Shown here: piece after piece, positions 1,312-16,299 of the stretch | Position numbering within the stretch: the first letter of the stretch is position 1 | Layout: every line of letters starts with the position of its first letter | Origin: Candidatus Rokuibacteriota bacterium | GTDB taxonomy: Bacteria; Methylomirabilota; Methylomirabilia; Rokubacteriales; CSP1-6 | NCBI GenBank assembly: GCA_003220225.1 | Contig: QHRU01000036.1 | Location: 124,001 to 188,000 of the forward strand | Reading direction: 5' to 3' | Length of the DNA: 64,000 nucleotides | Translations under genes and position numbers: made by a program | Notes under the pieces: model-generated | The model's database searches: none | The model's input: the letters and a program-made list of their open reading frames with translations, nothing else | Told to the model about the DNA's origin: nothing

Positions 1312-1757
1312 CCGGTCAGCGCTGGTTCGGCGACTTCACGGTCGGCGACCGGTTCGAGAGCCCGTCGAAGACGCTCACCGACGCGCACTTCATGTTCTTC
1401 GCCGGCATGACCGGCGACGCGCATCCCATCCACTACGACGACGAGTACGCGAAGACGACGCGCTACGGCCGCCGGCTCGCTCACGGCCTCATGCTGACCT
1501 CGCTGACGGCCGTCGGCGCCTCGACCCTGGCGCCGGTCATCGAGGCGTCGATCGTGGCCTTCGTCGAGCAGACGACGCGCTTCAGGCATCCGGCCTTCGT
1601 CGGCGACACCCTCAAGCCGCGCCACGAGGTCACGGCGCTCGAGCGCAAGCGCTCGGCCGGTCTGCTCACGCTGCGGGTGACCCTCGAGAACCAGCGTGGC
1701 GAGACCGTACTGGAGGGCGAGCACCGCTACCTGATCGCGTACCGCCCGGGCGCGTGA
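1308..1757 (+). CDS. MaoC-like hotdog-fold acyl dehydratase
   Basis: A 149-residue single-hotdog protein. It carries the hydratase-2 signature with the Asp/His pair in GDAHPIH (D37, H42) and the following R..HG segment (HG at 59-60), as in (R)-specific enoyl-CoA hydratases. It probably hydrates an enoyl-thioester; the substrate cannot be read from the sequence. The GTG start overlaps the dus stop and its own stop overlaps the next GTG (1754-1757). A longer open frame extends upstream of 1308 but is only the dus gene read in another frame. Confidence 0.8.
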   Translation: MTGQRWFGDFTVGDRFESPSKTLTDAHFMFFAGMTGDAHPIHYDDEYAKTTRYGRRLAHGLMLTSLTAVGASTLAPVIEASIVAFVEQTTRFRHPAFVGDTLKPRHEVTALERKRSAGLLTLRVTLENQRGETVLEGEHRYLIAYRPGA

Positions 1758-3076
1758 GCCGCGCGGCCACTCTCGCCGTGGCGCTGCTGCTCGTCGCCTC
1801 GACGGCCGCCGCCGAGGAGTCGCTGCGCCTGGCCGACTTCGGCCTGAAGGGCCAGGCCGTCTTCAAGAACTTCTCGCACTTCTCCGCGGCCGCAACCGAC
1901 GATCAGACGTTCGTGGACCTCGCCCTGCTGCAGCTCGAGTGGAGCCGGCGGTTCGCCGAGTGGGGCGCGGCCAAGGCGGTCGTGGAGGCGCGCGACGACG
2001 ACTTCGGCTACGCGCGCGGGCTGCACTTCCAGATCCCCGAGACGCATCCGCGCCGCTCCTACCTGAGCGTGAAGGAGGCGACGCTGGCGGCGCGCCGGGG
2101 GCCGCTGGAGGTCACCGTCGGCAAGCAGATCTTCGCCTGGGGCACGGCCGACGCCTTCAATCCGACGGACCGGCTCAACCCCTACGACTATCTCGACGTG
2201 CTCGACAACGAGAAGCTCGGCGTGTGGTCGGCCTCCGCCCGCCTCAGCGTGCCGCGGGTCAGTCTCGTCGTCGTCGGCGTGCCGTACTTCACACCGAGCC
2301 GATTACCCCTGGCGCACAGCCGCTGGACGCCGGCGGTGCCGTCGACGTTCCTCGCCGTCGTGGACCACGCGGAGCGGCCCGAGCAGGACGCGAGCGCGAC
2401 GCAGTACGCCGCGCGCCTGAAGGGTACGGTGGCCGGCTGGGATCTCTCGGTCAGCTACTACGACGGCTTCGAGCACACGCCGGTGTTTCGCGGCTCGACG
2501 ATCGCGCTGGCGCCGGGCGTCACCCTGCCGCGGCTGACGCCCGTGTACACGCGCGAGAAGGTGCCGGGCGCCGACTTTTCCACGACCTTCGGGAAGTTCG
2601 AGGTTCACGGCGAGGCGGTGGCCCGGCTCGTGGAGTCCAACGGCCGCGACGACCGCTTCCAGGGGATCGCGGGACTCAACTACACGCTGGACGTCGGCCG
2701 CCCCTGGCTCGACCAGATGCTCTTCGTCGTCGAGTACGCGCGTGAGACCGTGCTGCGCCACCATCGGCACGCCGACATCCTGGACAGCGACCGCGTGCCG
2801 CTCGTCGGGGCGCGGCTGTCGAACAACGCCTTCCGCGAGGCGGTGGTCGGCCGTATCCAGGCCAAGCTCAGCGAGGACACCGTGCTCAAGCTCAGCGGCA
2901 TCGCCGACCTCGGCGGCTCGCCGAGCCACTACATCCAGTTCAAGGGCACCCACCGGATCACCGACGCGCTGCACGTCGAGGCCGGGCTGGACTTCCTGAC
3001 GGGAAAGCCCGACACTTTCTGGGGCCGCTGGGGGGACAACGATCGCTTCTTCGCCGTGCTCCGCTATCTGTTCTGA
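1754..3076 (+). CDS. outer-membrane beta-barrel protein (DUF1302-like)
   Basis: A 440-residue protein with a signal peptide of about 20 residues ending AAA before EESLR. The mature part has alternating aromatic/polar strands, a 'KQIFAWGTADAFNPTDRLNP' segment, and ends in FFAVLRYLF, the C-terminal Phe typical of outer-membrane barrels. The segment resembles DUF1302-type barrel proteins. DUF1302 or similar barrels, an outer-membrane lipoprotein-sorting protein and an MMPL exporter occur together in other bacteria, as here. The role may be a porin or the outer-membrane part of a lipid exporter; the cargo is unknown. It lies directly upstream of the sterol genes. Confidence 0.7.
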   Translation: MSRAATLAVALLLVASTAAAEESLRLADFGLKGQAVFKNFSHFSAAATDDQTFVDLALLQLEWSRRFAEWGAAKAVVEARDDDFGYARGLHFQIPETHPRRSYLSVKEATLAARRGPLEVTVGKQIFAWGTADAFNPTDRLNPYDYLDVLDNEKLGVWSASARLSVPRVSLVVVGVPYFTPSRLPLAHSRWTPAVPSTFLAVVDHAERPEQDASATQYAARLKGTVAGWDLSVSYYDGFEHTPVFRGSTIALAPGVTLPRLTPVYTREKVPGADFSTTFGKFEVHGEAVARLVESNGRDDRFQGIAGLNYTLDVGRPWLDQMLFVVEYARETVLRHHRHADILDSDRVPLVGARLSNNAFREAVVGRIQAKLSEDTVLKLSGIADLGGSPSHYIQFKGTHRITDALHVEAGLDFLTGKPDTFWGRWGDNDRFFAVLRYLF

Positions 3077-3086
3077 CGGAGGCCGC

Positions 3087-3875
3087 GTGACGTCGCCTGG
3101 CGCGGTCGTCGCCCTCCTCTCGATCGTGCTCCTCGCGGCCGGTGCGATCCCCGCCGCCGCGCAGTCCGGCCTGGAGATCATGAAGCGCCAGCGCGAGCTG
3201 CAGCACGTCCGCGACGAAGAAGAGCGGCAGGTGCTCCGGCTCGTCAGCAAGTCGGGCGCGACCAAGGAGCGCCGGGTCACGCGCTGGGTGCTCAGCGGTC
3301 CGAACGATCTCGACAAGATCCTCGTGCGCTTCCAGGCTCCCCGCGACGTCGAGAACACCGCGCTGCTCACCTGGGAGGCGGCGGACGGCAACGACGACCA
3401 GTGGCTGTACCTGCCCTCGGTGAAGAAGCCCAAGCGCATCGCGGCCAGCAGCAAGAAGAACCGCTTCATGGGCACCGACTTCGCCTACGAAGACCTCCGG
3501 TCCGAGCCGCTGGCCGTCCACACCTACACGCTGCTCGGCGCCGATGTCGTCGACGGCGCCGACTGCTTCGTCGTCGACGCGAAGCCGGCCACGGAGCGGC
3601 AGGCGGCCGACAGCGGTTACTCACACCGGAAGATCTGGATCCGCAAGGACCATTACGTCACCGTCAAGCGCGAGTTCTACGATCGGCAGGACCGCCTGGA
3701 GAAGGTCGAGACCAGCCGCAAGCTCGTGAACGTCGCGGGCACGATCTGGCGCTCCGACGAGCTGGAGATGCACGACGTCCAGAACGGCACGCGGACGCTG
3801 GTGACGATCGAGTCCCGCGCGATCAACCGGGGCCTCCGCGACGACTTCTTCAGCGAGGCCGAGCTGATCCGTTGA
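3087..3875 (+). CDS. periplasmic LolA-like outer-membrane lipoprotein-sorting protein
   Basis: A 262-residue protein with a signal peptide (about 1-25, AAAQ site) and a LolA-like beta fold that binds lipid or lipoprotein in the periplasm. Recognisable segments are 'WLYLPSVKKPKRIA', 'FMGTDFAYEDL' and 'KIWIRKDHYVTVKREFYD'. These match the outer-membrane lipoprotein-sorting family that sits beside MMPL exporters, not canonical LolA. ACGGAGG lies 4 nt before the GTG. Its stop overlaps the TTG of the following exporter (TTGA). It probably hands cargo from the exporter to the outer membrane. Confidence 0.8.
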   Translation: MTSPGAVVALLSIVLLAAGAIPAAAQSGLEIMKRQRELQHVRDEEERQVLRLVSKSGATKERRVTRWVLSGPNDLDKILVRFQAPRDVENTALLTWEAADGNDDQWLYLPSVKKPKRIAASSKKNRFMGTDFAYEDLRSEPLAVHTYTLLGADVVDGADCFVVDAKPATERQAADSGYSHRKIWIRKDHYVTVKREFYDRQDRLEKVETSRKLVNVAGTIWRSDELEMHDVQNGTRTLVTIESRAINRGLRDDFFSEAELIR

Positions 3876-6625
3876 GGCGGCCGCTCCTCTGGGTGGCGGA
3901 CCATCCGGTCGCCGCCGTCGTCCTGACCCTCCTCCTGACGCTGGCTCTCGGCGCGCAGCTGCCCCGACTCCGGATCGACGAGTCGGCCGAAGGCCTGATG
4001 GTCGAGCGGGACCCGGCGCGCGCGTTCTACGAGCAGGCCCGGCAGCGCTTCGGCAGCGACAACCTCACCGTGGTCCTCGTCAAGGCGGACGACGTCTTCA
4101 CGCCGGCCGCGCTCACCGCCGTGCGGCGGCTCAGCGACGGGCTCGAGCGGGTGGCCGGCGTGAGTCGCGTGGAAAGCCTCACCACGACGCGGAACATCAA
4201 GGGCGAGGGCGACGCCCTCACCACCGATCCGCTCGTCGGCGCCGTGATCCCGACCGCGCCCGCCGAGCTGGCGCGGCTGCGAGCCGACGCGCTGGGCAGC
4301 CGCGTGCTCGTCGGCAACCTCGTGGCCGCCGACGGCCGCGCCACCGCGCTGGTCGTCTACGCCGACGCCCGGCCGGGCGAGACCGCGTTCAACCGGCGCT
4401 TCACGACGGACGTGGACGCGCTCGTCGCGCGGGAGACGCGGCCGGGCCTCACCATCTACCAGGTCGGCGCGCCGATGACGAAGGCGACCTACGCGCAGTA
4501 TCTGAAGGCCGACCAGCGCACGATCATTCCGCTGTCCACGGTCGTGCTGATCGTCACGCTCTTCCTGGCCGTCCGTACGCTCCAGGGCGTCGTCATTCCG
4601 GTGGTGACCGCGGTGGTGAGCATCGTCTGGTCGCTCGGCCTCATGGCCGTGACCGGCATCCCGCTGACGATCCTCACCGCGATCATCCCCTCGCTGATGC
4701 TCGCCATCGGCTTCACCGAAGACGTCCACATGATCTCGGAGTACCACCATCGGCTCGAGCACGGTGACGACAAGCTGACCGCGCTGCGCACGATGCTCGG
4801 CGAATCGGCCATGCCGATCCTCGTGACGACCGCCACCACGGTGCTCGGCTTCGGCAGCCTGATCACCACCGACATCACGATGCTGATCCAGTTCGGCTAC
4901 GCGTCCGCCATGGCCCTCACCGCGAACTACGTGGTCACGATGCTGCTGCTGCCGCCCATGCTCCGCTGGTGGGCGGTGCCGCGACGCCTGCGGCGCGTCG
5001 CCCTCGTCGACGAGTCGCCGCCCGGCGGGATCCCGCGCCTCATGCAGCGGCTCGGCGAGTTCAACCTCCGCTGGCGCGTGCCGATCCTCGTCGCGTGGGG
5101 CGCGCTCACGCTCGCCTCGCTGGCGGGCTGGCTCACGCTGCGGGTCAACACCGATCTCATCTCGTTCTTCCCGGAGCGCTCGGCCATCCGCCAGCGCGTC
5201 GCCGATCTCTCGCGCTCGCTGGCGGGCGGCCTCGCCTTCTACGTCGTCGTCGACACCGGGCACGACGATGGCATCAAGAATCCCGCGGTGCTGCGGCGGA
5301 TCGCGGGGCTGCAGGATCACCTGGCGGCCACCGGCCGCGTGGACAAGACCGTCTCGGTCGCCGACTACGTCCGCAAGATGCACCGCGAGATGCACGGCGG
5401 TGACCCGGCTTTCGAGACGATCCCCGAGACGTCGGACCAGGTGGCGCAGTACCTCCTGATGCTGGAGGGGCGGGAGCTGGAGAAGTTCGTCGACTTCAAG
5501 GCGGCGGCCGCCAACATCGTGGTGCGCCACCATCTCACCGGCTCCGGCGACCTCTCGGCCCTGCTGCGCGACATCGAGCGCCACGTGGCGCGCGACTTCC
5601 CGCCGACGGTGATCGTGCGCGCCACCGGCGAGGAGGTCCTGTTCAACAACGCCTCGGACTACATGGCCGTCAACGAGCTGACGAGCTTCTCCTCCACCTT
5701 CGTCATCATCGGCGTGATCCACGCCCTGCTCTTCATGTCGCTCAAGGCCGGGATCCTGTCGCTCATCCCGAACGTGGTGCCGATCCTGATGCTCTACGGC
5801 TTCATGGGACTGGTGGGCATCCCGCTGAACACCAGCACGGCCATGATCGCCACCGTCGCGATCGGCATCGCCGTGGACGACACCGTGCACCACATGGTGA
5901 CGTACAGCCGTCAGCTCAACGAGCTCCACGACCAGCGCCGCGCGATGTTCGAGACCCTGCGGATCGAGGGACGGCCGATCATCTACGTCTCGATCGCGCT
6001 GGCCGCCGGCTTCCTCACGCTGGTGGCGTCGAACTTCGTGGCCACCGTGTACTTCGGCGTGCTGGCGGCGTTCGTCATGCTGGTGGCGATGCTCGCGGAG
6101 CTGACGCTGACGCCGATCCTCATGGTGTCGATCCCCCTGCTGACGGTGTGGGACATGGTCAGGCTCCGCATGAGCGGCGACGTGCGGCGCGCGCCGCTCT
6201 TCGCGGGCCTCTCCCGGTGGGAGGCGCGCAAGGTCGTCCTGCTCGGCGGCCTGCACGAGTACGAGGCCGGCGCGCCCGTGATCGTCAAGGGCGAGATCGG
6301 CACCGAAATGTACATGGTGGTGACCGGCCGCATCCGCGTCTTCGACCCGCTCCCCGACGGCCGCGAGCGGACGCTCACCGCGCTCGGCCCGGGCGGCGTC
6401 ATCGGCGAGATCGGCGTGCTGACGCAGCAGGTGCGCAGCGCCTCCGTGGTCGCGGAGGCGCGCTCGGAGCTGCTGCGCCTCGACCTCGCGGCCCTGGAGC
6501 GGGTCCGCAAGTGGTCGCCCTACACCTCCGCCAAGCTGTTCCGGAACATCGCGCGCATGCTCGGCGAGCGCCTGCGCGAGGCGACCCAGCCCGGCGTCGA
6601 GAGCGCGCTCTCCCCGCGGGTCTGA
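3872..6625 (+). CDS. MMPL/RND-superfamily lipid exporter with C-terminal cyclic-nucleotide-binding domain
   Basis: A 917-residue inner-membrane transporter of the COG1033/MMPL branch of RND proteins, the group that includes hopanoid (HpnN) and other lipid exporters. It has an N-terminal helix, a periplasmic loop with 'DESAEGLMVERDP', a five-helix block with GFTEDVHMISEY, then a second loop and block with 'IGIAVDDTVHHMVTYSRQL'. Residues about 777-903 form a cNMP-binding domain ('VIVKGEIGTEMYMVVTGRIRVFD', here split by its own loop). That fusion suggests gating by a cyclic nucleotide. The TTG at 3872 overlaps the upstream stop; the longer upstream frame is a shadow. It is the last gene before the sterol operon. 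Confidence 0.88.
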   Translation: MRRPLLWVADHPVAAVVLTLLLTLALGAQLPRLRIDESAEGLMVERDPARAFYEQARQRFGSDNLTVVLVKADDVFTPAALTAVRRLSDGLERVAGVSRVESLTTTRNIKGEGDALTTDPLVGAVIPTAPAELARLRADALGSRVLVGNLVAADGRATALVVYADARPGETAFNRRFTTDVDALVARETRPGLTIYQVGAPMTKATYAQYLKADQRTIIPLSTVVLIVTLFLAVRTLQGVVIPVVTAVVSIVWSLGLMAVTGIPLTILTAIIPSLMLAIGFTEDVHMISEYHHRLEHGDDKLTALRTMLGESAMPILVTTATTVLGFGSLITTDITMLIQFGYASAMALTANYVVTMLLLPPMLRWWAVPRRLRRVALVDESPPGGIPRLMQRLGEFNLRWRVPILVAWGALTLASLAGWLTLRVNTDLISFFPERSAIRQRVADLSRSLAGGLAFYVVVDTGHDDGIKNPAVLRRIAGLQDHLAATGRVDKTVSVADYVRKMHREMHGGDPAFETIPETSDQVAQYLLMLEGRELEKFVDFKAAAANIVVRHHLTGSGDLSALLRDIERHVARDFPPTVIVRATGEEVLFNNASDYMAVNELTSFSSTFVIIGVIHALLFMSLKAGILSLIPNVVPILMLYGFMGLVGIPLNTSTAMIATVAIGIAVDDTVHHMVTYSRQLNELHDQRRAMFETLRIEGRPIIYVSIALAAGFLTLVASNFVATVYFGVLAAFVMLVAMLAELTLTPILMVSIPLLTVWDMVRLRMSGDVRRAPLFAGLSRWEARKVVLLGGLHEYEAGAPVIVKGEIGTEMYMVVTGRIRVFDPLPDGRERTLTALGPGGVIGEIGVLTQQVRSASVVAEARSELLRLDLAALERVRKWSPYTSAKLFRNIARMLGERLREATQPGVESALSPRV

Positions 6626-6721: not shown

Positions 6722-7297
6722 GTGTCCTGGCGGCCGCGCACCGCCCCGTTGTTCGAGCCGCACGTGCTCCACGCCGTCGCCCGGAGCGCCCTGGGCCTGT
6801 CGCACGAGAAGATGGTCCGCCACGTCAGCGAGGAGCTCGCGCGCCTCTACCCCGGCCACATCGAGACGCGGCCCAACTGGATGCTGAGCCTGGCCGGCGG
6901 CGTGATGGGGATCATGACGGTCCTGCACGGCTCGCTCTCGGAGTACGTGCTGATCTTCGGCTCGCCGGTGGGCAGCGAGGGCTTCTCCGGCCGGTACCGC
7001 ATCGAGATCCACGACTTCATGCTCGCCGGCGAGATGTGGACCTATACGGAGTCCGAGTTCGCCGAGCGCCGCGTCTACCGCGCGGGCGACGCCGCGTTCC
7101 TGGCGCGTCGCGAGGCCAAGGGCGTGAGGATCTTCGAGGACGCGTGGATGCTCGAGTACGGCCGCGGGCCCGTTCCCACCGTCCTCCCGTTCGGTCTGAG
7201 CGGCGCCCTCGCGTCCTTCGAGCTGCGGACGATCGCGCGAACCATCGGCGTCTACGGCCGGCTCGTCGTACGCGAGCTGCTCCGGGGCAAGATCTGA
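6722..7297 (+). CDS. ERG2/sigma-1-receptor family protein, predicted sterol delta8-delta7 isomerase
   Basis: A 191-residue protein matching the ERG2/SIGMAR1 cupin fold almost end to end. Segments include LAGGVMGIM (58-65), 'LHGSLSEYVLIFG' (68-80), GSEGFSGRY (84-92), WMLEYGRGPVP (142-152) and LPFG (155-158). D98 (in EIHD) and E145 (in LEYGRG) occupy the positions of sigma-1 receptor D126 and E172, the acidic pair proposed to act on the carbocation. ERG2 moves the sterol double bond from C8 to C7. Unlike the eukaryotic proteins it lacks an N-terminal membrane helix, but the C-terminal amphipathic helices remain. The next gene is a C14 reductase, which strongly supports a sterol role. Confidence 0.88.
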   Translation: MSWRPRTAPLFEPHVLHAVARSALGLSHEKMVRHVSEELARLYPGHIETRPNWMLSLAGGVMGIMTVLHGSLSEYVLIFGSPVGSEGFSGRYRIEIHDFMLAGEMWTYTESEFAERRVYRAGDAAFLARREAKGVRIFEDAWMLEYGRGPVPTVLPFGLSGALASFELRTIARTIGVYGRLVVRELLRGKI

Positions 7298-7299
7298 GC

Positions 7300-8511
7300 G
7301 TGTCGCGACGCACGCTCGGCCCCCTGGGACTGATGCTCGTCCTGCCGCCGCTCACGTACTACTTCTGGCTCTGCCTGCGCGATCACGACGGCGCGCTCGT
7401 CGCGCCGTCCCTCGGCGAGCTGATCCACAACGTGCCGGCGCCGACGCCGCGCGCGCTTGCGCTCTATGGCGCGTGGCTCGCGTCGCAGATCGTGCTCCAG
7501 CTGTGGGCGCCCGGGCGCGTGCAGGCGGGCGTCCCGCTCGCCGACGGCTCGCGCCTGCCGTATCGACTGAACGGCTGGGTGTCCTTCTGGGTGTCGCTCG
7601 CGGCGGCGCTCGTCGCCGGCGCCGCCGGCGTGATCCCGGCCGGCGTGGCGTTCGACGAGTTCGGGCCGCTCCTCACGACCGCTAACCTGATAGCCGGGGC
7701 ACTGGCGCTGGGCCTCTACGCGCAGGGGCGCCGCGCCGGGTCGACGACGCGCGATCCGATCCACGACTACTTCATGGGCACGACGCTGAACCCGCGCCTC
7801 CGCGGCTTCGACCTCAAGTATTTCTGCGAGAGCCGCCCCGGCTTGATCCTCTGGGTCCTCTTCGATCTGTCGCTCGCGGCCGCGCAGTACGAGCGGCACG
7901 GCACGGTGACGACGGCGATGCTGCTCGTCAACGCGTTCCAGTTCCTCTACGTCGCCGACTATTTCTTCCACGAGGAGGCGATCCTCACCACCTGGGACAT
8001 CAAGCACGAGAAATTCGGCTGGATGCTCGCGTGGGGCGACCTCGTCTGGGTGCCGTTCACGTACACCATCCAGGCCTACTACCTCGTGGACCACACGCAC
8101 GCGCTGTCGCCGGCGGCGACGGCGGGCATGGTCGCCCTGAACATGGCGGGCTACGCCATCTTCCGCGCCTCGAACATCCAGAAGCATCGGTTCCGCCGCG
8201 ATCCGACGCGGCCGGTGTGGGGACGGCCGCCGGAGTACATCCGCACCGCCGTCGGCTCGTTGCTGCTGACCTCCGGCTGGTGGGGCATCGCGCGCCACCT
8301 GAACTACCTCGGCGACCTCGCGATGGCCCTCGCCTGGTGTCTGCCCACGGGGTTGGAGCACCCCTTGCCGTACTTCTACTTCGCCTACATGATCGTCCTG
8401 CTCGTCCACCGCGAGCGCCGCGACCACGACGTCTGCCGGGCGAAATACGGCGCGGACTGGGACGCGTATTGCCGGAAGGTCCGGTGGCGGATCGTGCCGG
8501 GGGTGTACTGA
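7300..8511 (+). CDS. sterol C14 reductase, ERG24/ERG4 family
   Basis: A 403-residue polytopic membrane enzyme of the ERG4/ERG24 family, which reduces sterol double bonds with NADPH. Signatures in order are 'LPYRLNG' (87-92), HDYFMGTTLNPR (155-166), 'SGWWGIARHLNYLGD' (325-339), and the tail with HRERRDHD (370-377), KYGADW (382-387) and IVPGVY (398-403). Delta14, delta7 and delta24(28) reductases share these motifs. Linkage to CYP51, which creates the delta14 bond, makes C14 reductase the best call. The GTG start lies 2 nt after the isomerase stop, so the two are co-transcribed. Confidence 0.9.
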   Translation: MSRRTLGPLGLMLVLPPLTYYFWLCLRDHDGALVAPSLGELIHNVPAPTPRALALYGAWLASQIVLQLWAPGRVQAGVPLADGSRLPYRLNGWVSFWVSLAAALVAGAAGVIPAGVAFDEFGPLLTTANLIAGALALGLYAQGRRAGSTTRDPIHDYFMGTTLNPRLRGFDLKYFCESRPGLILWVLFDLSLAAAQYERHGTVTTAMLLVNAFQFLYVADYFFHEEAILTTWDIKHEKFGWMLAWGDLVWVPFTYTIQAYYLVDHTHALSPAATAGMVALNMAGYAIFRASNIQKHRFRRDPTRPVWGRPPEYIRTAVGSLLLTSGWWGIARHLNYLGDLAMALAWCLPTGLEHPLPYFYFAYMIVLLVHRERRDHDVCRAKYGADWDAYCRKVRWRIVPGVY

Positions 8512-8512
8512 C

Positions 8513-9847
8513 GTGAGCGACGCGCGCGCGTTCGACGTCGTCATCGCCGGCGGCGGCATGGCCGGCGCCGCGGTCGCGGCGGGCCTCGACGGCCTCGGGC
8601 TCTCCACGCTCGTGGTCGAGCCCGGCCTCGACGGCAGCAAGCGGCTCGCCGGCGAGCTGATCCATCCCCCGGGTACCACCGATCTGGCCGAGCTCGGGCT
8701 GCTCGGCGCGCTCGAGGCCGTCGGGGGCGCGCCGGTGCGCGGCTTCGCCGTGCTCGCCGACGGGCAGGCGCACCTGCTGCCGTACGCCCCGGTGGTCGGG
8801 ATGCGGCCGGCGGGCTTCGCGATGGAGCACGGCGCCATCGCCACCACCCTGCGCGGCACGATCGCACGGCGGCCGCACGTCGCCGTGTGGCACGGCGCGC
8901 GCGTCGTCGCGCTCGACGCGAGCGCCCCCGACCACGTCGGCGTCACCGTCGCGAACGACGCGGGCGCCGTCCAGCTCCGCGCGCGGCTGCTGGTGGGCGC
9001 CGACGGCGCGGCGTCCAGCGTGCGCCGGCTGGCCGGCATCGGCGCGCGGCGCCGGCGGATCTCGACGATGCTGGGGTTCGTCGTGCCGTGCGGCCGGCTG
9101 CCTCACCCGGGCTTCGGCTGCGTGCTCCTCGGCGGCCCCGCGCCGGCGCTCGCCTACCAGATCGCCACCGATGCGGTGCGCGTCATGTTCGACCTGCCCG
9201 ACGACACAGAAGGCAGCGACGTCTCCGCGCGCGGCCGCGCCTACCTCACGGCGCTGCCCGAGCCGCTGCGTACCGACGTGCGTGAGGCCATGGACGCGCA
9301 GCGCGGCCTCGTCTCCGCGAGCCACTCGGTCGAGCCCGACGCCGTCGCGCGTGGCCGCGTGGCCCTCGTCGGCGACGCCGCCGGCTGCTGCCATCCACTG
9401 ACCGCCACCGGTCTCAGCGTCTCGACCCGCGACGCCATCCGCCTGCGCGACGCCCTGCGCGCCGAGCCCGACGTGCCGTCGGCGGTGCGGCGCTACGCGG
9501 CGCACCGGGCGGGGCCACAGCGCACCCGCGTGGCGCTCGCGCAGGCGCTCTACGCGGTGTTCGTCGCGCGAACGCCGGAGACGCGCGTGCTGCGAACGGC
9601 GCTGCTGCGCTACTGGAAGCGCAGCCCGCGTGGCCGCGCCGTGTCGATGGCGCTGCTGTCCACGCAGGAAGGGCGCATGTCGATCATGGTGCGCGAGTAC
9701 GCGCACGTCGTGCGCCACGCGCTGCCCACGCTGCTGCGGCGTGGCGCCGAGCGCCGGCCGCTGGCCGCGCGCACGCGCGTGGCCCTCGGGCTGTCGGTCT
9801 CGACCCTGCGCCACGCCGGCGGCGCGCTGCGCGGCCTGCTGTCGTGA
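8513..9847 (+). CDS. squalene-monooxygenase-like FAD-dependent epoxidase
   Basis: A 444-residue flavoprotein predicted to convert squalene to 2,3-oxidosqualene. It has the FAD Rossmann motif GGGMAG (13-18), RLAGELIHPPG (44-54, the squalene epoxidase R..GE..QPGG-type segment), GADGAASSVRR near 162, and 'GDAAGCCHPLTATGLSVS' near 285-302, matching GDA..M.HPLTG.GM in squalene epoxidases. A C-terminal stretch with moderate hydrophobicity could attach it to the membrane. It could also be another group A flavin monooxygenase, but sterol neighbours and an oxidosqualene cyclase in the same locus favour squalene. It starts 1 nt after the reductase gene. Confidence 0.8.
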   Translation: MSDARAFDVVIAGGGMAGAAVAAGLDGLGLSTLVVEPGLDGSKRLAGELIHPPGTTDLAELGLLGALEAVGGAPVRGFAVLADGQAHLLPYAPVVGMRPAGFAMEHGAIATTLRGTIARRPHVAVWHGARVVALDASAPDHVGVTVANDAGAVQLRARLLVGADGAASSVRRLAGIGARRRRISTMLGFVVPCGRLPHPGFGCVLLGGPAPALAYQIATDAVRVMFDLPDDTEGSDVSARGRAYLTALPEPLRTDVREAMDAQRGLVSASHSVEPDAVARGRVALVGDAAGCCHPLTATGLSVSTRDAIRLRDALRAEPDVPSAVRRYAAHRAGPQRTRVALAQALYAVFVARTPETRVLRTALLRYWKRSPRGRAVSMALLSTQEGRMSIMVREYAHVVRHALPTLLRRGAERRPLAARTRVALGLSVSTLRHAGGALRGLLS

Positions 9848-10947
9848 GGCGCGCGGCCGTCGCGATCGTCGGGGCGGGGCCCGCCGGGACGGCGGCCGCG
9901 CTGCGCCTGGGCCAGCTCGGCGTTCGCGACGTCGTGCTCGTGGACCGCGCCGACTTCCCGCGCGACAAGACGTGCGGCAGCGGCGTGTCTCCCCGCGGCA
10001 TCCGCACGCTGCGCGAGCTCGGCGCGTGGGACGCGATCGAGCCTCACGCCTACCGCGTCACCGGGCTGCGGCTGGTGACCCCGGGTGACCGCGAGGTCGT
10101 CGTGTCGGGCGGCGAGGCGGCCGCCGCCGTCGTCTGCCTGCGACGCACGCTCGACCACGCGCTGCTCGAGCGCGCCCGCGCGCTGGGCGTCGACTTCCGG
10201 CCCGGCGTCACCGTGCAGGCGCTCCGCACCGAGGGCGAGCGCGTCGCCGGTGTCGTCGGCCGCGACGGCCGCGAGATCGCCGCTCGCTTCACGCTCGTCG
10301 CCGACGGCGCCCATTCGCGCCTCGCGGTCGACACGCGGCCGCCGCGCACGCTGCAGGCGATCATGGGCTGGTGGGAGGGCGCGCCGTTCCGCGGCCACCA
10401 CGTCGAGATGGTCTTCGACCGTCTCGTGACGCCGGGCTACGGCTGGCTCTTTCCCGAGAGCGCCACGCGCGTCAACATCGGCATCTGCTACGAGGATCCC
10501 GCGCACGCCAGGAACGGGCGCCACGTCTTCGAGGCGTTTCTCGACAAGCACTACGCGCGGCGGCTGCGCGGAGCGACGCAGGTGGGCGGCTTCAAGGGGC
10601 ATCCCATCGCGTACACGTTCCGCATCGGACGACTCTCCGCGCCCGGCCGGCTCGTCGTCGGCGAGGCGGGACGCATGGTGCACCCGGCGACGGCCGAGGG
10701 CATCTCCCAGGGCATGCGCTCGGGCATCTTCGCGGCGGAGGCGGTGGCGGCGGCCCTCGGCGGCCTCGACGAGCGCGCGGCGCGCGCCGGCTACGAGGCG
10801 CGCTGTCGTCGGGCGTTCGGCGCGTCGTTCGCGGCGGCGCGGCTGTGGCGCGCCGCCGTGAGCTCGTCGGCGCTCGATCGCGTCGTCGCCGCCGTCCAGC
10901 GCCCGGCCGTGAAGACCGCGCTCGCGCGCCTCATGGCGGCGATGTGA
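9844..10947 (+). CDS. geranylgeranyl-reductase family flavoprotein, candidate sterol side-chain or isoprenoid reductase
   Basis: A 367-residue FAD protein of the geranylgeranyl reductase family, which saturates isoprenoid double bonds. It shows GAGPAG (10-15), 'FPRDKTCGSGVSPRG' near 38-52 and GEAGRMVHPATAEGI near 272-286. The GTG overlaps the squalene epoxidase stop (9844-9847). No C24 reductase (DHCR24/ERG4) is seen elsewhere in the locus, so a role in reducing the sterol side-chain double bond is an attractive inference. A quinone or lipid-tail substrate is equally possible. Its 3' end overlaps the convergent cyclase gene by 17 nt. Confidence 0.78.
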   Translation: MRRAAVAIVGAGPAGTAAALRLGQLGVRDVVLVDRADFPRDKTCGSGVSPRGIRTLRELGAWDAIEPHAYRVTGLRLVTPGDREVVVSGGEAAAAVVCLRRTLDHALLERARALGVDFRPGVTVQALRTEGERVAGVVGRDGREIAARFTLVADGAHSRLAVDTRPPRTLQAIMGWWEGAPFRGHHVEMVFDRLVTPGYGWLFPESATRVNIGICYEDPAHARNGRHVFEAFLDKHYARRLRGATQVGGFKGHPIAYTFRIGRLSAPGRLVVGEAGRMVHPATAEGISQGMRSGIFAAEAVAAALGGLDERAARAGYEARCRRAFGASFAAARLWRAAVSSSALDRVVAAVQRPAVKTALARLMAAM

Positions 10948-12847
10948 CGCCGCCGCTCGCCGCGACGTAGCGCGCCAGCGCCCACGCCGGGAAGTACGCC
11001 GGATAGAGCCGGTAGTGGAGCATGGCCGAGCCGAAGAAGACCCCGTTGACCGCGCCGGCCGGCCAGCCGCCGTCGGCACGCTGGCGCGCGATCAGCCAGT
11101 CGACGCCGCGGCGGACAGCCTGCGCGTGCGGCCGGACGACTCCGAGCAGGGCGAGCAGCGCCCACGCCGTCATCACCGGCTGGCTCTCGGGGTGCTCGAC
11201 GTAGCGCTCGTCGCGCGCGCCCGAGTGATGCTCGCCCCAGCCTCCGTCCGCGCGCTGGCGCACCATCAGCCACGCCGCCGCGCGGACGAGCGCGGGATCG
11301 CCGGCGCCGACGCCGGCCGCGCGCAGACCTTCGACGAAGTGGAAGATCCCGTAGGTGAAGTTCACGCCCCAGAACCCCGGCACCGAGCCGTCGGGACGCT
11401 GCGTCGACCTCAGGAAGCGCACGCCCCGGTCGATCGCGCGGTCCAGGCGCACCGACGCGAGCTCGGGCCGCGCGGCGCGCAGCCGCGACAGCGCGCCGAG
11501 GGCGGAGGCGGTGCACTCCACGTACGAGCGCTCGGTCATGCACCGCCCGAACATCTCCGAGGGATTCAGCCGCTCGAGCCAGGCGCCGCCGCGGCGGCGC
11601 TCGTAGGTGGCGAAGCCGCCGTCGGCGTTCTGGCGCGCGAGGATGAAGTCGCGGGCGAGGCCCAGCGGCGCGGGATCGGCCCGGGCGACCTCGAGCAGCG
11701 CGCTCACCGCCTCGGCCGTGCAATCGCTCACCGGCCAGCGATGCGCGCCGTCGGAGAAACACCAGCCGCCGCGGATCGGATCGCGCCCTTGCTCACGGCC
11801 GCCCGGCAGCTCGACGGTCAGCTGGGCGCCGCGCAAGAACGCGGCCCCGCGCGCCACGCCCGCGTGCGCGGGCGCTGACGCCGACGGCGCCGCGGCCAGC
11901 GCGCGCAGCGCGAACGCCGTGTCCCAGGCCGTCGAGCGCGCGCCCGCGTAGCGGATGCCCTGCTCGGCGTCCTCCCAGCGCCAGTCCTCGAGCCCGGCGA
12001 GGCTCGCGTCGAGATCGGGATGCGCGCGCGACCAGAGGACGAGGCAGTTCAGGAGCCCGTTCACCGGCGACAGGGCGTGGTGCCGGGTGACCCGCTGCTC
12101 GTAGACGACCCGCTCGAAGCAACGATCGAGCGCCCGCCGTCGGAGCGGCGCGGGGACGGCGCGCTCGAAGACGCGCAGCGCGCGCCACGCGGCGCGCAGC
12201 GCCGGCGTCGGGTGGACGTAGAGATCCGAGGGCGCGACGTCGTCGCGATGGGCGGCGAAGTCCAGCGTCGCCCACGGCGTGCCGTAGAGCTCGTCGCGCA
12301 GCTCGTCGGCGAGCGGCCCGAGAGGCGCGCGCACGCGCCCGCCGTAGAGGCAGGCCATCGCCAGATAGATGTAGCGCGTGTGACAGTAGTAGCGCCAGGG
12401 ATGAAAGGGCAGCGCGCGCGGCAGCAGAACGAGCTCGGGCGGACACGGATTGACGCCGCGCCAGTCGTAGAGATCCAGCAGCGCGAGCCAGAACTTGCCC
12501 CACGTCGGGATCGCGAGCACGCCGGGCGGAGTCCCGAGCCAGCCCCGTGCCTCCTTCGCGATCGACTCGTCGCGCCCCACGCCCAGCAGGCGCAGGGCGA
12601 CGTACACCAGCGCCGTCACGAACACGTAGCCGCCGGATTCCGGGTGCAGCCCCCAGGCGCCGTCCGCCGACCGCGAGGCGTGGAAGTAGCGCACGAGGCC
12701 GGCGCGCGTCGCCGCGTCCACCGGCCGGCCGACGGCGTGGCGCACGATCGCGTACTGGGCGGTGATCATGGGACACCAGACCATCTCGCCTTCCCAGCCG
12801 CCGCGCCGCGACTGCAGGCTCAGCAGATGCTCGAGGGCGCGCTCACA
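10931..12847 (-). CDS. osc: 2,3-oxidosqualene cyclase (sterol-forming triterpene cyclase)
   Basis: An (alpha/alpha) barrel cyclase with several QW motifs (QNADGGFATYE, QRADGGWGEHH, QRADGGWPAG) and the catalytic VSDCTAE motif at 11711-11731. DCTAE is diagnostic of oxidosqualene cyclases, whereas squalene-hopene cyclases carry DxDDTA. The product is probably lanosterol or cycloartenol. Homology-like sequence begins near 'CERALEHLLSLQ', but that frame has no ATG, GTG or TTG between a GTG at 12985 and an ATG at 12784. The GTG lies 143 nt inside the Rieske gene, and the ATG would cut off the N-terminus. The start given is therefore approximate (about 638 residues). It overlaps the end of the upstream Rieske gene, as in a coupled operon. 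Confidence 0.9.
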   Translation of the reverse strand, partial: CERALEHLLSLQSRRGGWEGEMVWCPMITAQYAIVRHAVGRPVDAATRAGLVRYFHASRSADGAWGLHPESGGYVFVTALVYVALRLLGVGRDESIAKEARGWLGTPPGVLAIPTWGKFWLALLDLYDWRGVNPCPPELVLLPRALPFHPWRYYCHTRYIYLAMACLYGGRVRAPLGPLADELRDELYGTPWATLDFAAHRDDVAPSDLYVHPTPALRAAWRALRVFERAVPAPLRRRALDRCFERVVYEQRVTRHHALSPVNGLLNCLVLWSRAHPDLDASLAGLEDWRWEDAEQGIRYAGARSTAWDTAFALRALAAAPSASAPAHAGVARGAAFLRGAQLTVELPGGREQGRDPIRGGWCFSDGAHRWPVSDCTAEAVSALLEVARADPAPLGLARDFILARQNADGGFATYERRRGGAWLERLNPSEMFGRCMTERSYVECTASALGALSRLRAARPELASVRLDRAIDRGVRFLRSTQRPDGSVPGFWGVNFTYGIFHFVEGLRAAGVGAGDPALVRAAAWLMVRQRADGGWGEHHSGARDERYVEHPESQPVMTAWALLALLGVVRPHAQAVRRGVDWLIARQRADGGWPAGAVNGVFFGSAMLHYRLYPAYFPAWALARYVAASGGVTSPP

Positions 12848-13913
12848 CGCCGCCGGCGCGCTCGAGATGCTCCTCCCACTTGCGGACGGTGAGCTGCTGG
12901 AAGAGGGCGACGGCGGGATTGAGGTCGGGCACGGGCAGCGCGTGATGCGTCTCGTACGCCTGCTGCTCGGCCTCCACCGCCGCACCGTCCTGCCGGAGCA
13001 GGGGCGCGACGAGCAGCCGGTTGGCGACGCGGAGCAGCGGCGTCATGAGCGCGCGCGGGATGCGCACGCGCGTGAGCGGCACACGCAGCGACTCGAAGTA
13101 GAACAGAAAGAAGGTCCGCGTGGTGCGCTCGTCGATCGGCAGGAAGAAGCACCAGTGCTTGATCTTGCCGCCGGTGTCCGACCACTGGTAGGGATACTCG
13201 TAGCAGAGGTCCATGGCGTCGGTGTTGACGCGGCGGCGATCGACGAACAGGCCCGAGATCTTCCCGCGCCCGACCTTCGTCTGATAGCCGACGTACACGC
13301 GGTCCCCGATCGCCTCGCAGCGGGTGAGCCGCGCGTCGGAGAACGGCCGGTACTTGCGGTGCAGCCAGGCGTGGCTGAAGTCGCTCACGTTGTCCACGAT
13401 GAGCGAGTGGTGCGCGCGCCACGTGAAGTCGAGCGGCACGCAGGCCCACCGGTCGCGCCCCTCGAGCTCCGGGATGTCCGGGATCCGGCGCTCGGTGGCG
13501 CGCGCCGGATCGCCGGGAAAGATCCACACCAGGCCGTAGCGGACCCGGGCCGGATAGGCGCGCAGGCCGACGGCCGGCATCGGGTGGCCGAAGCGGTCGT
13601 GCGGGACGTCGGCGAGCCGTCCCGACTCGTCGTACGACCAGCCGTGATACATGCAGGTGAGCCGGCAGCCCTCGACGCTGCCCAGCGTGAGCGGCAGGTG
13701 GCGGTGCGCGCAGCGGTTCTCGAGCGCGCGCACGCCACCGTCGTCGCCGCGGAACAGCGCGATGGACTGGTTCCAGAACTTCACCTCGACGGCGCGGCCG
13801 CGCGGCAGGGCGCGCGCGTGCTCGACCGCGTACCAGTAGTCGGGATGGAGGCCCGCCACGCGCGCCTTCTGCCGCCGGTTCCGCGCGTCGGCGAAGGTCG
13901 GCGGCGCGCTCAC
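12843..13913 (-). CDS. Rieske [2Fe-2S] oxygenase, SdmA-like sterol C4-demethylase candidate
   Basis: A 356-residue oxygenase. The Rieske cluster ligands are C68-x-H70 and C87-x2-H90 (CAHRH ... CMYHGWSY). The mononuclear iron site is read in 'DNVSDFSHAWLHRKY', with N175, D178, H181 and H185. In Methylococcus capsulatus the Rieske protein SdmA oxidises the C4 methyl of sterols with its partner SdmB. This gene sits between cyp51 and the cyclase and two genes from an SdmB-like dehydrogenase, so the same role is inferred. The GTG at 13913 overlaps the cyp51 stop (GTGA). Other Rieske oxygenases acting on steroid rings cannot be excluded. Confidence 0.87.
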   Translation of the reverse strand: MSAPPTFADARNRRQKARVAGLHPDYWYAVEHARALPRGRAVEVKFWNQSIALFRGDDGGVRALENRCAHRHLPLTLGSVEGCRLTCMYHGWSYDESGRLADVPHDRFGHPMPAVGLRAYPARVRYGLVWIFPGDPARATERRIPDIPELEGRDRWACVPLDFTWRAHHSLIVDNVSDFSHAWLHRKYRPFSDARLTRCEAIGDRVYVGYQTKVGRGKISGLFVDRRRVNTDAMDLCYEYPYQWSDTGGKIKHWCFFLPIDERTTRTFFLFYFESLRVPLTRVRIPRALMTPLLRVANRLLVAPLLRQDGAAVEAEQQAYETHHALPVPDLNPAVALFQQLTVRKWEEHLERAGGV

Positions 13914-15304
13914 GGCGGGGTCCCCACGAGCGCCGGCGCGGCGAACGTGACGCCGGCGCGCCGCCGTCGATAGCGGACGAGACACGGACGCCGCGGGCCG
14001 ACGACGAACGTGGCGTAATCCGGGCGGTGGCCGGTGCGCGCGAGCGACAGCTCGAAACGGCGCAGGATCACCGACCAGATCACCTTGATCTGCTGCTGGG
14101 CGAAGGTCGCGCCGATACAGCGATGGTGGCCGCCGCCGAAGCCGATCAGGCCGTGCTTCGTGCGCCGGTCTTCCTGGCGCGGAGGTCCGAAGCGGTCGGG
14201 GTCGTAGCGGTCGGGATTCGCGAACACCTGCGGCAGCCGGTGCGCGGCCGCCGGCGAGACCATGGCCAGCCCGCCGGCCGGCAGCACCCAGCCGTCGTAC
14301 TCGAAGTCGCGCACGATGCGCCGCATGAGCATCACGAGCGGCGGATGCATGCGCTCGGCCTCCTTGACGCAGCGCTCGAGCGCCGCGAGGCGCCGCAGCG
14401 CCTCCAGGGTGATCTCGCCGTCGCCGACCTCGCTCGCCAGCTCGTCGAGCACCGCGGGCAGCCAGCGCTCGTGCTCGAGGAGCAGGATGCCGGTCCACGC
14501 GCCCATCACCGTGCTCGTGTGCTGGCCGGCGAAGATCGTCGAGATCAGCAGCCCGACGATCTCGTCGTCGCTCAGCGCGCGCCCGTCGGCGTAGCGGGCG
14601 GCCATGAGTACGTGGAGGAAATCCTCTCCGTCGCGGCCACCGGCGCGCCGCTCCGCGATGATGCGCGTGATCAGCTCCGCCATGCGCGCCCGCGCGCGGT
14701 CCCGGCGGCGGAAGGCGGGCAGCGGCAGGTAGGGGTTCACCATGGCCACCAGGTTGATGCCGCGCTCGAGGTCGTGGAACAGATGGGCGAGGTCGCGCGA
14801 GAGACGCGCGCGGAACTCGGCGCCCACCAGGCATCGGCTCGCGATGAACACGGTCAGCTCGTTGAGGGCCGCGAGGAGGTCCACCTCTCCCTCGTCGCCC
14901 CACGCGGCGACGTAGGCCTCCGCCTCCTCCTGCATGACGCGCGCGTAGGCGCGCAGCCGATCGTCGCGCAGCGCGGGAAAGAGCAATCCCATCTGCTCGT
15001 CCATCACCTCCGGGCTCGCGTCGTACACGACGCCTTTGCCGAAGATCGGCACCGTGAACCGGTAGACCTCGCGCGCGCTCAGCCGGTCCTCGGTCGCGCC
15101 GAAGACCGCGGCCTGCGCGCGCGGGCCGATGAACGCGGTGACGCGCGTGCCGGGCAGACGCAGCGAGAACACTTCGCCGAAGCGCGCGTGGCCGCCGAGC
15201 AGCAGACCGACGGGATCGCGGCGCAGGTCGAGGGCGTGACCGAGCAGCGGCAGACCGCCCGGCAGCATCGGCGGCGTCCGGTCCCGCCGGGTCGCGGTCG
15301 TCAT
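13910..15304 (-). CDS. cyp51: CYP51 sterol 14alpha-demethylase (cytochrome P450)
   Basis: A 464-residue P450. The CYP51-specific substrate-recognition segment 'YRFTVPIFGKGVVYDA' is at 81-96, the I-helix oxygen motif 'FAGQHTST' at 258-265, ExxR at E315-R318, and the heme loop 'FGGGHHRCIG' at 389-398 with C396 as ligand. CYP51 removes the C14 methyl in three oxidations and leaves a delta14 double bond, which the reductase at 7300-8511 would reduce. No N-terminal membrane anchor is obvious, as in other bacterial CYP51 proteins. The ATG overlaps the upstream stop by 4 nt (ATGA at 15301-15304). No ferredoxin gene is adjacent. Confidence 0.93.
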   Translation of the reverse strand: MTTATRRDRTPPMLPGGLPLLGHALDLRRDPVGLLLGGHARFGEVFSLRLPGTRVTAFIGPRAQAAVFGATEDRLSAREVYRFTVPIFGKGVVYDASPEVMDEQMGLLFPALRDDRLRAYARVMQEEAEAYVAAWGDEGEVDLLAALNELTVFIASRCLVGAEFRARLSRDLAHLFHDLERGINLVAMVNPYLPLPAFRRRDRARARMAELITRIIAERRAGGRDGEDFLHVLMAARYADGRALSDDEIVGLLISTIFAGQHTSTVMGAWTGILLLEHERWLPAVLDELASEVGDGEITLEALRRLAALERCVKEAERMHPPLVMLMRRIVRDFEYDGWVLPAGGLAMVSPAAAHRLPQVFANPDRYDPDRFGPPRQEDRRTKHGLIGFGGGHHRCIGATFAQQQIKVIWSVILRRFELSLARTGHRPDYATFVVGPRRPCLVRYRRRRAGVTFAAPALVGTPP

Positions 15305-16299
15305 CGGCGCGTCGGCGCCTGGCCGCGGCGGACGAAGTCCTCGTACGCCTCGCGGACGGCGTCCTCGACCGACGTCGGCCGGTAGCCGAGCTCGCTCCGC
15401 GCCTTCGTGACGTCGGCGCGGCGCTCGGAGCGCAGCAGGCGCACCGCGCCCGGCGTGAAGCGAGGCTCCGCGCGCGGGGCGACGCGGCGCGCGACCGCGT
15501 CGACGACCTCGGTCAGCGCCAGCATCAGCCCCGACGGCAGGCGCAGCCGAGGACGCGGGCGCCCCGTGACGCGCTCGAAGATCGCCATCAGCTCGTCCAC
15601 GGTGTGAAACGCCGTCGAGAAGATGTACTTCTGACCGGCGCGGCCCTTGTCCATCGCGAGCCGATGGCCCTCGACGATGTCGCGCGCGGCCACGAACTCG
15701 AAGCCGCCCGGGATGTAGGCGCGCAGACGGCCGCGCGCAAAGTCGAGCAGCACCCGGCCCATCCGCGACGGCTTGAAGTCGTTGGGGCCGACGATGGCGC
15801 ACGAGGTCGCGATGACGACGTCGAGGCCGTCGGCCGCCGCCTTGAGGCACTCGTGCTCGGCCGCGACCTTGCTGCGCGCGTAGGGCAGCAGCCGCTCGAA
15901 CGGATCGACCGGCATGCTCTCGTCGCACGGGCGGCCCGGGACCCAGCCGACGGCGCTGACGGATCCGGTCACGACGATCCGGTCGACGCCCACGTCGAGC
16001 GCGGCGCGCAGGAGGTGGCGGGTACCGAGCACGTTGCAGTCGTGGATCTCGCGCGGCTGCCCCGCGCCGCTCGACACCTTCGCCGCGCAGTGATACACGC
16101 GGCGACAGCCGCGCACCGCCTCGCGCGTCGCGCGCGCGTCGCGCAGATCGCCCCAGGCCCGCTCGACGTCGAGGCCGTCGAGCGCCCGGTTGTCGCTGTC
16201 GCCACGGACCAGCACGCGGACCGCCTGGCCCTCGTCGAGCAGGCGGCGGACGAGGTTCGCGCCGAGATGTCCGCTGCCGCCGGTAACGAGGACCGTCAT
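15301..16299 (-). CDS. NAD(P)-dependent 3beta-hydroxysteroid dehydrogenase/isomerase family protein, SdmB-like
   Basis: A 332-residue extended short-chain dehydrogenase with the Rossmann motif GGSGHLG (7-13), a serine in TGSVSAVG (111-118) and the catalytic YARSK (Y140, K144). It is a 3beta-HSD/epimerase-type protein. In sterol C4 demethylation such an enzyme oxidises the 3-hydroxyl with loss of the C4 carboxyl group (SdmB in Methylococcus, ERG26/NSDHL in eukaryotes). First gene of the minus-strand sterol operon, with 4-nt coupling to cyp51. The role is inferred from context; sequence alone would also allow a sugar epimerase. Confidence 0.85.
   Translation of the reverse strand: MTVLVTGGSGHLGANLVRRLLDEGQAVRVLVRGDSDNRALDGLDVERAWGDLRDARATREAVRGCRRVYHCAAKVSSGAGQPREIHDCNVLGTRHLLRAALDVGVDRIVVTGSVSAVGWVPGRPCDESMPVDPFERLLPYARSKVAAEHECLKAAADGLDVVIATSCAIVGPNDFKPSRMGRVLLDFARGRLRAYIPGGFEFVAARDIVEGHRLAMDKGRAGQKYIFSTAFHTVDELMAIFERVTGRPRPRLRLPSGLMLALTEVVDAVARRVAPRAEPRFTPGAVRLLRSERRADVTKARSELGYRPTSVEDAVREAYEDFVRRGQAPTRR

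Follow-up and report, generated by a model that had tools for sequence, protein, structure and literature searches.

Gene content and layout of the locus

The window analysed here, that is, the whole 64-kb stretch of DNA (G000:C113:124001-188000), comes from a metagenome-assembled genome (MAG) of Rokubacteriales, an order of Methylomirabilota which PMC8780371 describes as having no cultivated member so far. The host assembly is 6.03 Mb long, 97% complete and divided into 167 contigs. At 6722-16299 the window contains eight sterol genes, all with intact frames, which are arranged in two convergent operons. The plus-strand operon has the order ERG2-ERG24-SQE-GGR with intergenic gaps of 2, 1 and -4 nt, and the minus-strand operon has the order SdmB-CYP51-SdmA-OSC, in which the first two junctions overlap by 4 nt. 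The two operons meet tail to tail, GGR ending at 10947 and OSC at 10931, which makes an overlap of 17 nt (10931-10947). Upstream of ERG2, the same-strand gene string extends as far as 1754 and includes a probable transport module.

All eight proteins pass general family tests (Pfam/TIGR), and the eight genes with their family assignments are secure, which we state with very high confidence. An earlier note on this DNA had described the same eight enzymes and the convergent operons with their 17-nt overlap in an uncultivated lineage, and this description held. The hidden Markov model (HMM) searches that it proposed for SQE, OSC, CYP51, ERG24 and ERG2 all gave scores over the cut-off, which are listed with each protein below.

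The oxidosqualene cyclase

The 2,3-oxidosqualene cyclase (OSC; 10931..12862, minus strand, first conserved residues near 12850), annotated as lanosterol type, scores 867.9 bits with TIGR03463 (cut-off 851), and its N and C domains score 197 bits each in Pfam (cut-off 26). The catalytic motif VSDCTAE is read on the minus strand at 11711-11731, where the DCTAE had been placed before, and D455, C456 and C533 are kept (human lanosterol synthase, LSS, numbering here and below). At positions 381/449/453 the window OSC has A/H/V, the identical set in the OSC of Methylococcus capsulatus. The identity is 59% to M. capsulatus OSC, 38.7% to human LSS and 32.6% to the squalene-hopene cyclase (SHC) of its own genome, and the nearest structural relative in PDB is lanosterol synthase. 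In the OSC tree, the three Rokubacteriales OSCs form one clade (Shimodaira-Hasegawa-like approximate likelihood ratio test, SH-aLRT, 99), which lies near Methylococcaceae, Myxococcota and Actinomycetota and away from the clade of symbionts.

Two other identities of the cyclase were rejected. A hopanoid-making SHC, a possibility raised in the earlier note, is ruled out by model, as TIGR01507 gives 274.7 bits, below its cut-off of 431.1, and a separate true SHC exists in the genome; moreover, the cyclase has the DCTAE motif where an SHC would have DxDD. A recent eukaryotic origin is ruled out by the identities to human LSS and M. capsulatus OSC and by the nesting of the cyclase in a bacterial clade.

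The partner enzymes

The ERG2/sigma-1-receptor-family protein (6722..7297, plus strand, 191 aa) matches ERG2_Sigma1R (PF04622) with 159.9 bits (cut-off 21). Its best PDB match is the human sigma-1 receptor (106.6 bits), and the equivalents of the acidic residues D126 and E172 are kept (EIHD, WMLEYGRG). The sigma-1 receptor has the same fold without isomerase activity, and we assign the protein by context as a putative sterol delta8-delta7 isomerase; the gene adjoins ERG24 in the window, in G061, and in loci L045 and L047. No EBP-type isomerase was found in the host genome. Among OSC-bearing genomes, the EBP type is over the cut-off in 3 of 54 and the ERG2 type occurs in 10 of 50.

The ERG24-type delta14-sterol reductase (7300..8511, plus strand, 403 aa) scores 407 bits with ERG4_ERG24 (PF01222; cut-off 27) and shares 57.5% identity with 4quv, a bacterial delta14-sterol reductase of solved structure. 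In the tree it forms a clade with 4quv (SH-aLRT 94, inside a clade of 100), and the reductases found in sponge-symbiont clusters lie elsewhere. The squalene epoxidase (8513..9847, plus strand, 444 aa) matches SE (PF08491) with 81.5 bits (cut-off 20.1), and its best PDB match is human squalene monooxygenase (97.7 bits; runner-up 45.8). A homologue of it adjoins OSC in most of the other bacterial loci compared.

The last gene of this operon encodes a geranylgeranyl-reductase-family (GGR) flavoprotein (9844..10947, plus strand, 367 aa; TIGR02032 163.0 bits, cut-off 158.8). It shows both motifs listed for Bsr, the GGR-family C24 sterol reductase (PMC12004948), namely YxWxFP (YGWLFP at 199) and the active-site Cys (in DKTCG). 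By analogy with Bsr, the protein is likely a C24 sterol reductase, which would add side-chain reduction to the scheme of the earlier note.

On the minus strand, CYP51 (13910..15304, 464 aa), a sterol 14-alpha demethylase, scores 196 bits with the Pfam p450 family and has the heme motif FGGGHHRCIG. Its 56 best PDB matches are all CYP51 except one labelled just "Cytochrome P450", and the top score is 404.5 bits, whereas the best-scoring P450 named as something else has 155.2. The putative Rieske C4-methyl sterol oxygenase (12843..13913, 356 aa) matches Rieske (78 bits) and VanA_C (48 bits) and has the Rieske motif CAH...CMYH. The dehydrogenase/decarboxylase of the short-chain dehydrogenase/reductase (SDR) type (15301..16299, 332 aa) matches the Epimerase family (124 bits). 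These two proteins are called SdmA-like and SdmB-like below, because their scores fall under the equivalog cut-off.

Squalene supply and hopanoids

The earlier note had not seen a squalene synthase. It turned out that two genes of the squalene-synthase family (SQS_PSY) are present elsewhere in the host genome, one of them on the contig bearing SHC and HpnA, so squalene supply is not lacking and its absence is ruled out. The hopanoid locus (L040, G000:C96:106000-125422) contains the SHC (TIGR01507, 765 bits), HpnA and the squalene-synthase-family gene. Since these hopanoid genes are in the same genome, hopanoids and sterols are probably made side by side in this host.

Related loci in the phylum

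We surveyed 95 genomes of the phylum, all of one class. OSC was found in four of them (G000, the window's genome, and G044, G061, G063), and a squalene-hopene-type cyclase in nearly all; both transfer into the order and repeated loss fit this distribution. In G044, a MAG of the same genus, one contig has TPR-SdmB-CYP51-SdmA-OSC-GGR-SQE, with TPR 77% and the sterol genes mostly 82-88% identical to the window, and another has DUS-MaoC-barrel, 70-90% identical to the window flank. The genes missing between these two blocks (LolA, RND, ERG2, ERG24) are just those that the gap separating contigs C275 and C164 would contain. Therefore, with the gene order and the flanks on both sides shared by the window and a same-genus MAG, contamination is unlikely. 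Besides, third-position GC is 0.91-0.97 in all locus genes and one flanking gene, and the Rokubacteriales are monophyletic in the SdmA and SdmB trees as in that of OSC (SH-aLRT 96 and 99).

The two other OSC-bearing genomes, G061 and Ca. Rokuibacteriota AR8 (G063; L036/L042), share the order SdmB-CYP51-SdmA-OSC with the window, with identities of 65-67% for OSC, 70-77% for SdmA and 69-75% for SdmB. They differ from the window in other genes. In G061, ERG2, ERG24 and a second SdmA are on a separate contig, while G063 has in addition a sterol C24-methyltransferase, a KshA-type Rieske oxygenase, a second SdmA and a second ERG24-like reductase. Between the window and G061 the identity ranges from 88% (ERG2) and 84% (ERG24) to 67% (OSC) and 31% (SQE), so the pathway may have been assembled or exchanged piecewise; differing rates are the alternative.

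Several further observations were made in these relatives. On contig C164 of G044 (L039), frame shifts interrupt OSC (in two pieces), CYP51 and SdmB, and CYP51 is likewise interrupted in G063; the breaks in G044 may be assembly errors or decay. On G061 contig C28 (L126 2785-5632), the second SdmA, next to the ERG2 and ERG24 copies, is 47% identical to that of the window. Like G061, G063 has two SdmA copies, which might divide the two C4 methyls between them, and the window's genome has a single one. The methyltransferase (Sterol_MT_C, 80.9 bits) and the KshA-type oxygenase of G063 (L036 8131-9159 and 9156-10184) lie beside the OSC cluster, and the former suggests a potential for side-chain-alkylated sterols in Rokubacteria.

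A probable transport module upstream

Three plus-strand genes at 1754-6625 end 96 nt upstream of ERG2. The first encodes a predicted outer-membrane beta-barrel protein (1754..3076, 440 aa), the proposed exit channel. It matched no Pfam family, and it has a signal-peptide-like helix, about 18 strands and a C-terminal RYLF; its structure model, of low confidence (pLDDT 56), resembles the AlgE/MOMP/Occ barrels. The second is a LolA_like protein of the periplasmic lipid-carrier type (3087..3875, 262 aa; PF17131, 188 bits). The third is a transporter of the resistance-nodulation-division (RND)/MMPL type (3884..6625, 913 aa) with similarity to Patched and sterol-sensing domains and with a C-terminal cyclic-nucleotide-binding domain (MMPL 116.6, Patched 58.3, Sterol-sensing 45.4 with a cut-off of 22.3, cNMP 71.1 bits). 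Two named transporters were ruled out for it, BstA (NF045600, 44 bits, cut-off 1400) and HpnN (109 bits, cut-off 752).

In G061, the same triple directly follows SQE and GGR. A LolA_like gene also lies 0.3-1.9 kb beyond OSC in six sterol clusters from symbionts that belong to other phyla (L084, L086, L097, L100, L107, L115), and most of those genomes have just one to three strong LolA_like copies. In M. capsulatus, an inner-membrane RND protein, a periplasmic protein and an outer-membrane protein (BstABC) are likewise encoded beside sterol genes (PMC10942540). The window, however, has LolA-like and beta-barrel proteins where the PhnD-like BstB and the TRAP-T-like BstC stand (PMC10942540), and its module can be likened to BstABC in compartment logic at most, not as a member.

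Proposed pathway and alternative explanations

From known reactions of these enzyme families, we infer the following pathway. Squalene would probably come from the two squalene-synthase-family proteins encoded elsewhere, which are HpnC/HpnD-like. The SQE-type flavoprotein would epoxidise it, and OSC would cyclise oxidosqualene to lanosterol. After removal of the C14 methyl by CYP51, the resulting delta14 bond would be saturated by the ERG24-type reductase. The SdmA-like oxygenase together with the SdmB-like SDR would take off one C4 methyl or both. The shift of the double bond from delta8 to delta7 would fall to the ERG2-type isomerase, and the saturation of C24 to the GGR-family flavoprotein. 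The sterol might then be carried to the outer membrane by the products of the upstream barrel, LolA-like and RND genes. Lathosterol (cholest-7-en-3beta-ol) or 4-methyl-cholest-7-enol would most likely be the final sterol, made alongside hopanoids. The earlier note had predicted sterols demethylated at C4 and C14 with an isomerised ring-B double bond; the enzymes for this are encoded, but with a single SdmA both C4 removals are not assured. The SdmAB pair of Methylococcus removes one C4 methyl and that of Calothrix two (PMC10202945); for the window, the removal of two seems about an even call.

Taken together, this is very likely a working locus of bacterial type with which a member of Rokubacteriales makes sterols and, probably, exports them, and the genes predict with high probability that the host makes sterols de novo. 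Lanosterol is the highly probable first product of the cyclase. V453 sets lanosterol synthases apart from cycloartenol synthases (I453), and V453 and the M. capsulatus-like residues point to lanosterol. On the other hand, H at position 449 is the state of plant cycloartenol synthase and position 381 is A rather than T, so the cyclase might yield cycloartenol, parkeol or an arborane-like triterpenol, a skeleton on which the later enzymes would act. Bacterial OSCs with other products are indeed known, such as the arborane cyclase (Banta 2017, as cited in PMC9531527). Still, the OSC has CYP51, ERG24 and SdmAB as its neighbours, a setting shared with lanosterol users, and a non-lanosterol product is rather unlikely. 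The cluster could also alter or scavenge eukaryotic sterols from soil fungi or protists, considering that sterol-degrading bacteria too have a bacterial sterol reductase and relatives of CYP51 (PMC13277303). This is quite improbable for a locus with SQE and OSC in the same operons, their active sites intact, in a genome with squalene-synthase-family genes. Even less probable is a mis-binned contig from another organism, for example a co-assembled myxobacterium; the many contigs of the MAG and the few OSC-bearing genomes in the phylum would allow it, but the genes and both flanks recur in the same-genus MAG, third-position GC is uniform, and the three genera form a single clade for each of OSC, SdmA and SdmB.

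For the transport module, the question is whether it serves sterols or is a general exporter of lipids or hydrophobes that is a neighbour of the sterol genes by chance, to which we give an even chance. The MMPL and LolA_like families are broad, and the barrel occurs in G090. Conversely, barrel homologues (at least 50% identity) were found in 4 of 4 OSC-bearing members of the family and in 2 of 53 OSC-less members (Fisher p 3.8e-5, with shared ancestry ignored), the triple adjoins sterol genes in both the window and G061, the six other-phylum clusters have LolA_like less than 2.5 kb from OSC, and the RND protein resembles sterol-sensing and Patched domains. A role of the module in sterol transport, as a candidate exporter distinct from BstABC, stands at or slightly under an even chance. 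It is somewhat less likely than not that it represents a new type of trans-envelope sterol exporter, built of families other than BstB/BstC, co-inherited with sterol synthesis in Rokubacteriales and with some of its parts found again near the sterol clusters of other phyla.

Several points weigh against the sterol synthesis and export reading as a whole. The transport triple is present in G080 without OSC. The SdmA-like and SdmB-like proteins score 373.6 (NF052579) and 343.1 (NF052578), both lower than the equivalog cut-off of 600, although these Methylococcus-derived models are the best ones for them. In an internal control that favours the SdmB assignment, the window SdmB scores 343.1 with the SdmB model and 276.4 with HpnA, and the order is reversed in its hopanoid-cluster paralogue (HpnA 449.9, SdmB 238.6). 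In the window (12743-12990) and in G044 alike, no ATG, GTG or TTG is found in the conserved stretch that leads from the SdmA stop codon to the first of the conserved OSC residues. Starting OSC at the listed GTG (12985) adds about 40 residues, encoded within SdmA but in a different frame, and in G044 this extension is interrupted by a stop codon; a CTG or other non-standard start codon coupled to SdmA thus seems needed. As to the ring, the earlier note had not seen a C5 desaturase, and we likewise found no convincing ERG3-type C5 desaturase; nor did a convincing delta7 reductase turn up, so the predicted route stops short of cholesterol. The genome encodes a single PF04116 protein (395 aa, L125 3350-4537 on G000:C150, beside a thiolase), which is unconvincing as a C5 desaturase, with the ornithine-lipid hydroxylase OlsE as nearest model (117.9 bits, cut-off 475). 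Finally, no lipid data from any Rokubacterium were found in the literature covered.

Comparison with known bacterial sterol clusters

Bacterial sterol synthesis bears on the origin of the eukaryotic pathway and on the reading of steranes in rocks. Sterol clusters are already known in other bacterial phyla (Calothrix, Sandaracinus, and sponge symbionts with ERG2). In our partial coverage of the literature we found no sterol report for Rokubacteria or Methylomirabilota, and an earlier report is possible. With its full gene set and its hopanoid genes, the host is probably a new sterol producer, from a phylum of soils and sediments; a version with a side-chain methyltransferase occurs in G063, which belongs to a different genus of the same family, and the transport module is a testable candidate for sterol movement to the outer membrane in bacteria.

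Among the known systems, Sandaracinus amylolyticus resembles the window in its mostly single cluster, its lanosterol-type OSC, the removal of the C14 methyl, the use of SdmAB at C4 and a C24 reductase from the GGR family (PMC12004948), this Bsr having been tested in lysates (PMC12004948). It belongs to Myxococcota and makes cholesterol, with further ring double-bond steps encoded (PMC12004948), whereas neither a C5 desaturase nor a delta7 reductase was found here. In Calothrix sp. NIES-4105 a single cluster likewise covers the making of oxidosqualene, its cyclisation by OSC, the demethylation at C14, SdmAB and the isomerisation at C8, but the organism is a cyanobacterium and the cluster, at 21 kb, is about twice as long as the window locus (PMC10202945). 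Its SdmAB removed both C4 methyls when tested, and sterol analysis of the native strain was inconclusive (PMC10202945). The sponge-symbiont MAG clusters (PMC9531527; many of L080-L121) have strings of SdmB-SdmA-ERG24-CYP51-SQE-OSC, several with ERG2, but on one strand, with a distant OSC clade, another ERG24 clade and no GGR found nearby; SMT, a sterol methyltransferase, is reported in many of them (PMC9531527). M. capsulatus, whose OSC has the same product-deciding residues, differs in having 8,14-Bsr in place of the C14 reductase and C8 isomerase (PMC13277303).

The earlier note had held that far fewer late-pathway genes are clustered in most of the known sterol-making bacteria. To compare, we used 79 named bacterial OSC loci with 10-kb flanks, some of them shortened by contig ends. 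Within 10 kb, at most three of the eight genes were found in 40 loci and at least six in 34, so rarity had been overstated, although none of the 79 has all eight. The window stands at the rich end of the known spectrum and not a category of its own, and seven of the eight genes are found in three loci, from Nonomuraea, a Bryobacterales MAG and a gammaproteobacterial MAG.

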